A stretch of DNA of 36,715 nt from Candidatus Methylomirabilis sp. (GTDB lineage Bacteria; DYJV01). Position numbers and translations under genes: made by a program. Under the pieces are notes generated by a model, which was given only the letters and a program-made list of their open reading frames with translations, was not told the origin of the DNA and did no database searches. The DNA lies in assembly GCA_020722945.1 (NCBI GenBank), contig DYJV01000020.1, forward strand, positions 1-36,715, in the 5' to 3' direction. Numbering within the stretch: position 1 is the stretch's first letter; the number at the start of each line of letters is the position of its first letter. Of this stretch, positions 10,716 through 29,580 are shown in pieces.

Positions 10716-11897
10716 ATGTCAAGAATAGATTTTAAAAACAAAAATGACAAAAATATTGTTTTTCTAATAGTGGATGATATTCCCAATATGCGTAGAACAT
10801 TGAGGAATATGCTAAAACATTTAGGCTATAAGAATATTTTTGAGACAGAAAACGGAAGGGCTGCACTTGCAAAGGTCAAAGTTCAACCTATTAACTTCAT
10901 AATAACAGACATTAATATGCCTATAATAAATGGAATCGAATTTATCAAAGTTATCAGAAAAGATCCTAAATTAAAATTTATACCCATTATTGTAATCACA
11001 GGTGAAACTGACAAAAACAGCATAGCTAATGCAGCAGAAGTAGGAGCTGACGAATACCTGATAAAACCTTTTTTCGTAACAACCTTAGAAACAAAGATAA
11101 AATCAACCATAAACTCCCTAATAAACCCAGAAAAAAGCCACTACCACTACATAAAGGGTGTCCAATACTACGACAACAACCAATTTGTTGAGGCTCTTGA
11201 TGAATTCAAAGAATCTGTAAAAATAGATAAAAAGTTTTCAAAAGCTTACTCTGGAATGGCAAACATATTTATTAAAAATAATCAGATTGACAAAGCTGAA
11301 ATGGTAATAAATGAATCTTTAAAGCACAACCCAAACTATATTGAAGCTTATCAGATATTAGGCGATATATACAAAACCAAAAAAGATATAAAAACAGCAA
11401 TACAATATTTTCAAAAAGCCTACTCACTTAATCCTAAAAATTTAGAGAGAATAATAAATTTAGCTCAAATAAATATAGAGATATCAAATAAAAATGAAGC
11501 TGACAAATACCTAAAAATAGCACTAAATACTGACAACACACAAGAAACAAAAAATAAAATAGCAGATATCTATCTTGAAAGTGGAAATTACGACAAAGCT
11601 ATCGAAATTTACGGTAAAATAGTGCAAGAGAATCCTGTTTACCTTCTCGCTTACAACAAAATGGGAATAGCATACAGAAAGCAGCAGAAATTTGACGAAG
11701 CAATAGAATCGTATAAAAAAGCCGTCACCTATGGGGGGGAGGACAAAAATGTTTACTACAATATGAGCAGAACTTATTACGAAAAAGGTGATATCGAAAA
11801 AGCAGCTACATTTGCTGAAAAAGCTTTAAAAATAGACCCAGATTTTATTGAAGCAAAGGAAGTATTAGCTGTTTTTAAAAAAAATATTAAGCCCTGA
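10716..11897 (+). CDS. Response regulator receiver domain fused to TPR repeats
   Basis: A 393-residue protein. The N-terminal CheY-like receiver (about 14-130) has acidic pocket residues Asp20/Asp21, phosphoacceptor Asp65 in FIITDINMP, Thr95 in VITGETD and Lys117 in YLIKPF, so it should be phosphorylatable. From about residue 143 to the end there are roughly seven 34-residue TPR units, with typical wording such as GDIYKTKKDIKTAIQYFQKA and KMGIAYRKQQKFDEAIESY. TPRs bind proteins, so the output is probably partner binding and not transcription. No clear SD precedes the ATG; it starts 3 bases after the kinase stop and may depend on translational coupling. Its last 33 bases overlap the 3' end of the radical SAM gene on the other strand. 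Confidence 0.92.
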   Translation: MSRIDFKNKNDKNIVFLIVDDIPNMRRTLRNMLKHLGYKNIFETENGRAALAKVKVQPINFIITDINMPIINGIEFIKVIRKDPKLKFIPIIVITGETDKNSIANAAEVGADEYLIKPFFVTTLETKIKSTINSLINPEKSHYHYIKGVQYYDNNQFVEALDEFKESVKIDKKFSKAYSGMANIFIKNNQIDKAEMVINESLKHNPNYIEAYQILGDIYKTKKDIKTAIQYFQKAYSLNPKNLERIINLAQINIEISNKNEADKYLKIALNTDNTQETKNKIADIYLESGNYDKAIEIYGKIVQENPVYLLAYNKMGIAYRKQQKFDEAIESYKKAVTYGGEDKNVYYNMSRTYYEKGDIEKAATFAEKALKIDPDFIEAKEVLAVFKKNIKP

Positions 11898-13775: not shown

Positions 13776-13890
13776 TTGGATATTTTCCCTTATATTTATT
13801 TGATGAAAAGTAACTTTTGTGAGTGTGAATTATTGAAATAGGGTAAAAATATTTGATAGATAATACTATTAAAAAAATATTTTTACAATA

Positions 13891-13923
13891 AAAAAGGCAC
13901 AACTAAAAGAGCTGTGCCTTTTT
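13891..13923 (-). terminator. Intrinsic terminator after the Sec-peroxiredoxin gene
   Basis: Arms GGCACA (13896-13901) and TGTGCC (13913-13918), flanked by AAAAA and TTTTT, form a stem around a short loop, with CT/AG extending it after one mismatch. Read on the minus strand, the hairpin ends in a U-run and lies 30 bases after the peroxiredoxin stop. The flanks are symmetric, so it could act in both directions. Confidence 0.8.
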
Positions 13924-13953
13924 TGAAATTTGATACATTAGATAAAAATTGGA

Positions 13954-14565
13954 CTATTCACCAACCTTCCATACCTTCCATACATTGCCAACAAGTTCTG
14001 GAGAAGGTTTTAATGTTTTCTTGCCAGGCTCCCAGCCTGCTGGACAAGCTTCTGTGCCACCAGCTTTTCTTACATGCTGAAAAGCTTTGAACTGTCTTAT
14101 AACTTCATTAACATTTCTACCAACCGGCGGAGAAAGAATTTCGATTGCCTGAATGATTCCATCAGGATCAATTATAAAACGTCCCCTGACATTTAAACCT
14201 CGTGCCTCATCATAAACACCATAATCTTTACCAATAGCTCCAGTAGGGTCAGTAAGAAGGGTATAAGGGTAATGACCTCCATCTACCATTTTTGAAAGCT
14301 CTGTCTCGTCCCAAATCTTATGGATAAACTCTTTATCAACACTAATTGGAAAAACTTCTACTCCAAGCTCTTTAAACTTATCTTTTTGAGCAGCAACTGC
14401 TGCTAACTCTGTAGGTCAAACAAAGGTAAAATCAGCAGGATAAAAACATAACATTACCCACTTCCCAAGATAGTTAGAAAGTTTAAACTCTCTGAAATCA
14501 CCATTAAAATAAGCTGTTGTTTCAAAATCAGGTGCTTTTAATCCAACTTTTGCTTTAACTGACAT
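13954..14565 (-). CDS. prxU: Selenocysteine-containing typical 2-Cys peroxiredoxin (in-frame UGA = Sec50)
   Basis: Reduces peroxides in the cytoplasm using a catalytic selenol. The frame reads [39 protein letters not shown] (14418-14416), [28 protein letters not shown] and so on to the stop at 13954. Everything after the TGA is in frame and fully conserved, and the TGA replaces the peroxidatic Cys of the invariant FTFVCPTE motif. The resolving Cys is present as Cys174 (TEACPAGW). Length 203 is normal, counting from the ATG at 14565, which follows AAGGAGG at 7 bases. An in-frame ATG at 14649, also with GGAGG, would add 28 residues. A hairpin starts 11 bases after the UGA. Sec-peroxiredoxins (PrxU) are known in other anaerobes. 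Automatic callers would split this into two short genes at 14416-14649 and 13954-14289. Confidence 0.93.
14389..14404 (-). promoter_or_regulatory. Candidate bacterial SECIS hairpin for Sec insertion
   Basis: On the minus strand, AGCAGC, loop AGTT, GCTGCT form a perfect 6-pair stem that starts 11 bases after the UGA. In the E. coli fdhF SECIS the minimal upper stem-loop also starts 11 bases after the UGA and carries essential G and U in the loop; here the loop contains GU. The same bases encode the conserved AAVAA of peroxiredoxins, so part of the pairing could be coincidental. The Sec-tRNA and SelB genes are not in this window. Confidence 0.6.
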
Positions 14566-14649
14566 CTCTTCTCCTCCTTCATATTTTATGTTATTACTTG
14601 ATTCCACAACTTCAGCAACTTGCGGTTTATTTTTCTTCAAACAAGCCAT
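14566..14649 (-). other. Possible 28-residue N-terminal extension or leader of prxU
   Basis: An in-frame ATG at 14649, with GGAGG 5 bases upstream, opens [16 protein letters not shown] and runs without a stop into the SD region (read as EGGEE) and the second ATG. Normal 2-Cys peroxiredoxins have nothing here. Either two protein forms are made or one start is unused; the second start has the better spacing and gives the family length. Confidence 0.4.
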
Positions 14650-14725
14650 CTATCCCTCCCACATTATAAAAATTCAATCAAAAATATATAAGAATAAATT
14701 ATATATATCATTTATTGATAATTGT

Positions 14726-28524: not shown

Positions 28525-29037
28525 ATGAACATTTTTATCACCCAAGATAAAATAAAAAAGAGGGTAAAAGAGCTATCTTTATTGATCAGTTCAGACTACC
28601 CAGACAAAGAGCTGATGCTCATATCAATCCTGAAAGGGAGTTTTATCTTTACTTCTGATCTTTTCAGAGAGCTATCGAGAGTAAAAAATAATATATCTGT
28701 TGATTTCATAAGAGCAAAAAGCTATTCAGGTAAACATTCCTCAGGAATTTTAAATATAGATGGTTCTATTCCTAATGTTTGCGGGAAAAATATAATTATT
28801 GTTGAAGATATATTGGATACAGGGTTTACTCTTGAACAGATTTACCATAAACTCCTCTCCCAAAAGCCAGAATCATTAGAGATAATTGTTTTAATAAATA
28901 AAAAAAGTTACGACAAATTGACCATCCCTATAAAATATTCAGGATTTACACTTGAAGATGACAAATTTATAGTCGGCTATGGGCTTGATTACAACGAAAA
29001 ATATCGTGGATTACCTGATATTTATACCATAGACTGA
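28525..29037 (+). CDS. hpt: Hypoxanthine phosphoribosyltransferase
   Basis: Purine salvage: joins hypoxanthine or guanine to PRPP to give IMP or GMP. The 170-residue type I PRTase has LMLISILKGSFIFTSDLFRE (PPi loop), VDFIRAKSYSGKHSSG (flexible loop), the PRPP-binding IIIVEDILDTGFTLEQI, and FIVGYGLDYNEKYRGLPDI with base-contacting residues. It starts 3 bases after the DUF456 gene, with only a weak SD, and is followed by cobU after 18 bases. Confidence 0.95.
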   Translation: MNIFITQDKIKKRVKELSLLISSDYPDKELMLISILKGSFIFTSDLFRELSRVKNNISVDFIRAKSYSGKHSSGILNIDGSIPNVCGKNIIIVEDILDTGFTLEQIYHKLLSQKPESLEIIVLINKKSYDKLTIPIKYSGFTLEDDKFIVGYGLDYNEKYRGLPDIYTID

Positions 29038-29055
29038 TTTTTAGGAGAAATTTTT

Positions 29056-29580
29056 GTGAGCAAAATTGTTTTTACTTTGGGGGGCAATAGAAGTGGTAAA
29101 AGTGATTTTACCCAAAAATATGCTGAAAGTTTAGAAGGTGTAAAAACATACATTGCTACAGCTATACCTTTTGACCAAGAGATGAAAAAGAGAATTGAGA
29201 TGCACAGAGTAAAACGGGGTAAAAAATGGGATAAGCTTATCGAAGAACCTTACAAACTCCCATTTGTAGTATCAGACCTAATAGGTAAAAGTGATATTGT
29301 CCTAATTGACTGCATAACCATCTGGCTAAGCAATTTATTACTTAAAGATGAGAATAATATCTCTCTTATTTATCAAAAAATAGATGAATTGATTCTAAAT
29401 ATATCAAATATAAACTACAATTTATTTATTGTTTCAAATGAGGTTGGAATGGGGATAGTCCCTGAAAATAGATTAGCAAGGATTTTTAGAGATATTTCAG
29501 GAGTTGCAAACCAGAAATTAGCCGAGATATCAGATGAATTTTATATAGCTTTTGCAGGTTTCCCTTTAAGATTAAAATAA
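29056..29580 (+). CDS. cobU: Adenosylcobinamide kinase / adenosylcobinamide-phosphate guanylyltransferase
   Basis: Activates adenosylcobinamide to its GDP derivative in the nucleotide-loop assembly of cobamides. The P-loop is GGNRSGKSDF (about 9-18). The guanylylated-His region is MHRVKRGKKWDKLIEEP, followed by LIDCITIWLSNLL and SNEVGMGIVPENRLARIFRD. The 174 residues are normal. The GTG start at 29056 follows AGGAG at 8 bases. cobS, the next pathway enzyme, is the next gene after 53 bases. Confidence 0.95.
   Translation: MSKIVFTLGGNRSGKSDFTQKYAESLEGVKTYIATAIPFDQEMKKRIEMHRVKRGKKWDKLIEEPYKLPFVVSDLIGKSDIVLIDCITIWLSNLLLKDENNISLIYQKIDELILNISNINYNLFIVSNEVGMGIVPENRLARIFRDISGVANQKLAEISDEFYIAFAGFPLRLK

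Follow-up and report, generated by a model that had tools for sequence, protein, structure and literature searches.

The locus at positions 13954-14649 (minus strand) of the window, that is, the whole 36,715-nucleotide stretch of Candidatus Methylomirabilis sp. DNA analysed here, is almost certainly an intact, single-gene prxU that encodes a selenocysteine (Sec) peroxiredoxin; its expression, Sec content and activity are predicted by comparison of sequences. PrxU is a kind of protein known today, and the window copy adds a new member from a lineage with little sampling. We further propose, with confidence evenly balanced, that PrxU may be a two-form selenoenzyme in many phyla, translated from one mRNA at two starts that are each led by a Shine-Dalgarno (SD) sequence, and that a Cys in the tail of the long form may give the enzyme a second thiol for resolving or docking.

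When TGA is translated as Sec (U), the minus strand from 14649 to 13954 holds a single frame of 231 amino acids in which the sole TGA is codon 78, and neither a frameshift nor a second stop is required. The first-pass annotation had described two open reading frames that join across one TGA without a shift, and the peroxiredoxin matches in Pfam, NCBIfam and PDB indeed run continuously through this TGA. As was also claimed, the TGA (14418-14416) lies exactly at the peroxidatic position, between FTFV and PTE (FTFV-U-PTE), which is Sec78 of the long form and Sec50 of the short form by translation and comparison with homologues. Translation and alignment place the C-terminal resolving Cys, Cys202, at 14044-14046 (minus strand) in the motif EACPAGW, and the window protein has both residues of a typical 2-Cys peroxiredoxin, the peroxidatic Sec78 and the resolving Cys202. 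It is important to note that the earlier numbering (Cys174, 22 kDa) counts from an internal start at 14565, while counting from 14649 gives Sec78 and Cys202. Downstream of the gene, a probable intrinsic terminator (13890-13924, minus strand) consists of a 15-bp stem and a U run with a folding energy of −19.5 kcal/mol. Such a hairpin and U run after the prxU stop suggest that the gene is probably transcribed alone; a promoter scan returned many AT-driven matches.

The profile matches identify the family. The protein reaches 347.7 bits with the NCBIfam model of PrxU (NF040737; cut-off 270), with residues 3-229 aligned to model positions 4-231 of 233, and the AhpC equivalog model (TIGR03137) stays below its cut-off (196.3 bits against 272). 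Pfam detects AhpC-TSA (residues 35-168), Redoxin and 1-cysPrx_C in the protein, and 2-Cys peroxiredoxins in PDB align to residues 31-217. An AlphaFold2 (AF2) monomer model, built from an alignment of 39 sequences from which two plasmid-collection rows were left out, has the peroxiredoxin core (pLDDT 82.5, pTM 0.80), places Sec78 at the N-terminus of the helix 77-87 and leaves residues 1-27 disordered. The best PDB matches found by Foldseek are Prx1, Prx3, Prx4, plant PrxA, AhpC and TXNPx. The fold, the FTFVxPTE active site and the ECPAGW-type motif of the resolving Cys are shared with typical 2-Cys peroxiredoxins (AhpC, Prx1-4, TXNPx); these proteins, however, have Cys where the window protein has Sec, and the latter is set apart by its score below the AhpC cut-off and by an N-terminal extension with a Cys.

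Sec peroxiredoxins appear in PMC1794560, PMC1088965 and PMC13188914, and the last of these cites Sohling et al. 2001 for PrxU of Peptoclostridium (Eubacterium) acidaminophilum. The annotated prxU of that species is 56.5% identical to the window protein over 97% of the query and carries TGA at the same codon, which bears out the earlier statement that the class is established elsewhere. The expectation that the gene would be missed or mis-annotated holds in part: gene callers using translation table 11 would give two pieces, but NCBI already models the protein. Since NCBIfam has a model of the class and the P. acidaminophilum record names the gene, prxU is less hidden than had been suggested.

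Homologues were collected from public genomes and two plasmid records; with the window counted among the Sec genes, 88 have Sec and 22 have Cys. This ratio is not a frequency, because similarity to Sec forms guided the choice of most relatives. The tree groups the window with the founding P. acidaminophilum protein, apart from the Cys-type AhpC/Prx proteins, in a clade that holds 87 Sec rows and a single Cys row (support 100/98; placement to clade level). This PrxU clade spans about fifteen phyla, as judged by record titles. The peroxidatic codon is TGA in 87 of its 88 members, the window included, and TGT in one. That sole Cys member, from Peptoniphilus mikwangii (L091, about 2000-2660), has TGT in place of TGA and a degraded or lost SECIS pattern, a probable Sec-to-Cys change on this comparison.

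Two translation starts can be recognized in the window. The upstream ATG (14647-14649, minus strand), supported by translation and start comparison, opens the long form of 231 amino acids and follows the SD sequence GGGAGGG (14654-14660, minus strand; anti-SD energy −10.7). The internal ATG (14563-14565, minus strand), supported by its open reading frame and start comparison, opens a short form of 203 amino acids with Sec50 and follows AAGGAGG (14573-14579, minus strand; anti-SD energy −11.7), an SD that is found family-wide. In 79 of 87 Sec genes, an in-frame extension opened by a second SD-led start lies upstream of the point where the Cys homologues begin (for example, L051, L087, L115 and L131). 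The distance between the two starts is mostly 34-39 codons (about 36); in the window it is 28.

The extension differs among 17 close pairs of genes, not all of them independent, at 202, 179 and 319 sites of codon positions 1, 2 and 3, whereas the 60 nt upstream of it, used as a control, show an even 187, 216 and 215. To judge from this codon-position bias, the PrxU extension is translated. It is a variable, disordered linker apart from one Cys, which falls within the first 16 residues in 78 of 79 extensions and is invariant in the long forms that could be aligned (44/44); in the window it is Cys3, with its codon at 14641-14643 (minus strand). A translated extension with an invariant Cys points to selection on the long form. 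In 11 of 16 Cys homologues, the open frame upstream of the short start is shorter than 25 codons, which makes this start look ancestral.

The main competing explanation accepts a real PrxU but lets only one start be used, with an internal SD that arises incidentally from a linker rich in lysine and glutamate, or with an upstream start that is minor. We give it rather less than even confidence. KEE/EGGEE residues yield an SD through their codons anyway, so the synonymous-codon test is weak for any single gene (median p 0.17; window 0.35). The founding PrxU paper reportedly numbered the residue Sec47, a count that would match the short form and would fit a single start. However, the internal SD equals the upstream one in average strength (−10.3 and −10.5 kcal/mol, respectively) and is far above that of ATGs in the gene body: it reaches −8 or lower in 82% of genes, compared with 4.5% of windows picked from the gene body by an identical rule, and the mean for synonymous-codon shuffles is −6.4 against the observed −10.3. 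The translated extension with its invariant Cys and the ancestral look of the short start also argue against one start only, as does Peptoniphilus mikwangii, in which both starts share the same AATATTAAGGAGGAAA stretch. The use of both starts, the reading we propose, may be a new observation as a family-wide architecture with an invariant N-terminal Cys: no description of two starts or of an N-terminal Cys in PrxU was found in the literature searched, which covered papers free of subscription.

The C-terminal resolving Cys behaves differently from the tail Cys. The first-pass annotation had offered an intact resolving Cys as support; the residue is present in the window, but 67 of the 87 Sec homologues do without it and have Thr, Met or Ala there instead. 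The founding PrxU of P. acidaminophilum is among those without it. The trait changes four times on the tree. The C-terminal Cys is kept in 16 of 78 proteins with the N-terminal Cys and in 4 of 9 without, which is only a hint of an anti-correlation between the two. Together with the frequent absence of the C-terminal Cys, the signs of two starts and the conservation of the tail Cys suggest a long and a short PrxU and a catalytic or docking role for the tail Cys; if it were a second resolving or docking thiol, one could understand how PrxU proteins mostly manage with no C-terminal Cys. The founding protein shares with the window copy the TGA at the peroxidatic codon, the SECIS with an AGUU loop and an N-terminal extension with one Cys; it differs in having Ala at the resolving position (EVAPSGW), where the window keeps Cys (EACPAGW), and in the length of the extension (about 35 amino acids against 28), the window lacking the GCARP motif apart from its Cys. 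Human peroxiredoxin 4 likewise has an extra N-terminal Cys before the peroxiredoxin core (PDB lists a C51A mutant), but this is an analogy only, as it is a eukaryotic protein of the secretory pathway with Cys rather than Sec.

A bacterial SECIS element follows the TGA. Its apical hairpin, AGCAGC-AGUU-GCUGCU (14389-14404, minus strand), starts 12 nt after the TGA and is supported by folding, conservation and covariation. According to the known rule (PMC1088965), a bacterial SECIS element is a stem-loop that immediately follows the UGA and carries a conserved G in its small apical loop; the window hairpin has this arrangement, with the conserved G as the second base of the AGUU loop. Positions 20-25 after the TGA read C-RGTY-G in all 88 Sec genes and in none of the 22 Cys genes, and the stem pairs on both sides. 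Positions 18, 21, 24 and 27 are third codon positions (of Ala-Val-Ala in most genes), where protein constraint is weak. At the loop-edge wobble positions 21 and 24, the 88 Sec genes have GGTC (45), AGTT (40) or GGTT (3) and never AGTC, and the four informative contrasts on the tree all agree, too few for significance. The pair 18/27, in which both positions are wobble, is a standard pair in 88 of 88 genes through several pair types, and tree-controlled independent contrasts change in the same direction (7:0, p 0.016). In a single-sequence fold, the window hairpin is no more stable than shuffled sequences (z −0.5 to −0.7), and an Rfam scan found no SECIS model at the gathering threshold, with only chance matches (E 2-3) over 14250-14500, so bacterial SECIS elements of this type are not captured there. 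The SECIS assignment is thus drawn from comparison among homologues.

This comparison also bears on the proposal that the locus is a pseudogene or a sequencing error, that is, an ordinary Cys peroxiredoxin whose TGC or TGT codon has mutated to a stop or was miscalled as TGA. A draft assembly with a peroxiredoxin that is unremarkable but for a single in-frame stop is what such an error would look like, but the stop sits at the one catalytic codon. The chance that a random stop would fall there is about 1/231, and the same TGA is common to 87 of 88 clade members, so the earlier argument that random decay would hardly choose this codon is well founded. Moreover, the hairpin is intact although its wobble positions were free to drift, the gene has no other damage, and the genome carries a full Sec machinery. 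We consider decay or miscall very improbable and reject it on the shared TGA and the SECIS.

The assembly (2.51 Mb in 184 contigs, 98.1% complete with 5.8% estimated contamination; the window is contig C4) has all the genes for Sec decoding that a Sec peroxiredoxin had been said to imply, and the search for selA, selB, selC and selD proposed with that statement found every one of them, including the selB and selC whose absence would have spoken against the gene. SelA (contig C37, 595.8 bits), SelB (C46, 350.9 bits), SelD (C91, 334.1 bits) and tRNA-Sec (C23, 72.8 bits) all exceed their curated cut-offs, and ARAGORN calls the tRNA SeC with the anticodon tca (UCA). None of these genes shares a contig with the window, but their GC content is similar (29.6-34.8% against 32%). 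SelD itself (C91, L011) has an in-frame TGA in AAGUAGK, and FdhA (C110, L146) has one in DHCARLUHSSTV, positions that we take to be the standard Sec sites of both families. By their sequences, SelD and FdhA are two further, independent selenoproteins of the same genome. In one relative of the same order, SelB is present (43% identity over the C-terminal two thirds), and no peroxiredoxin match at all was found in it. Two TrxR-type thioredoxin reductases are also encoded in the genome; no AhpF match exceeds its cut-off.

A variant code with TGA read everywhere as Trp, Gly or Cys, to which a sense-like TGA in a conserved gene could point, is the least credible reading and is rejected, as TGA acts as a stop elsewhere (it terminates 5 of the 30 window genes, and in four of these a further stop lies within 0-2 codons), the internal TGA of each of the three genes examined is at a known Sec site, and the UCA-anticodon tRNA is tRNA-Sec.

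Two other arrangements in the window were noted. At 28525-29580, an hpt-like gene ends in TGA and a cobU-like gene comes next, in frame with it and with no intervening stop; they are probably ordinary neighbouring genes, the cobU-like one having its own GTG start at 29056. At 11865-11897, the 3' ends of two convergent genes overlap, a response regulator with TPR-like repeats (plus strand) and a radical SAM-like gene (minus strand).

For the Sec-containing PrxU that we favour, a mechanism can be outlined. From established knowledge of SelB and SECIS, SelB and Sec-tRNA(UCA) would bind the hairpin with the AGUU loop and insert Sec at codon 78. As in peroxiredoxins generally, the selenolate would reduce H2O2 or alkyl hydroperoxides and become a selenenic acid, which in the window copy could be resolved as a Se-S bond by Cys202 of the partner subunit; thioredoxin would then reduce this bond. 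As the window copy keeps Cys202, a Se-S intermediate reduced by thioredoxin would be the simplest cycle. If both starts are used, as the conserved signals across phyla suggest, the cell would make a long form with a flexible Cys3 tail and a short, tailless form. The Cys in the tail may be an alternative thiol for resolving or docking, especially in the majority of PrxU proteins, which have no Cys202.

In short, PrxU, SelD and FdhA together with selA, selB, selC and selD make up a complete and independently supported Sec decoding trait in a poorly sampled lineage. PrxU is not an ordinary 2-Cys enzyme: most members are without the usual resolving Cys, and nearly all have a tail Cys. The gene architecture predicts two translation products, and it becomes possible to test directly how a Sec peroxiredoxin that has no classical partner Cys is regenerated.
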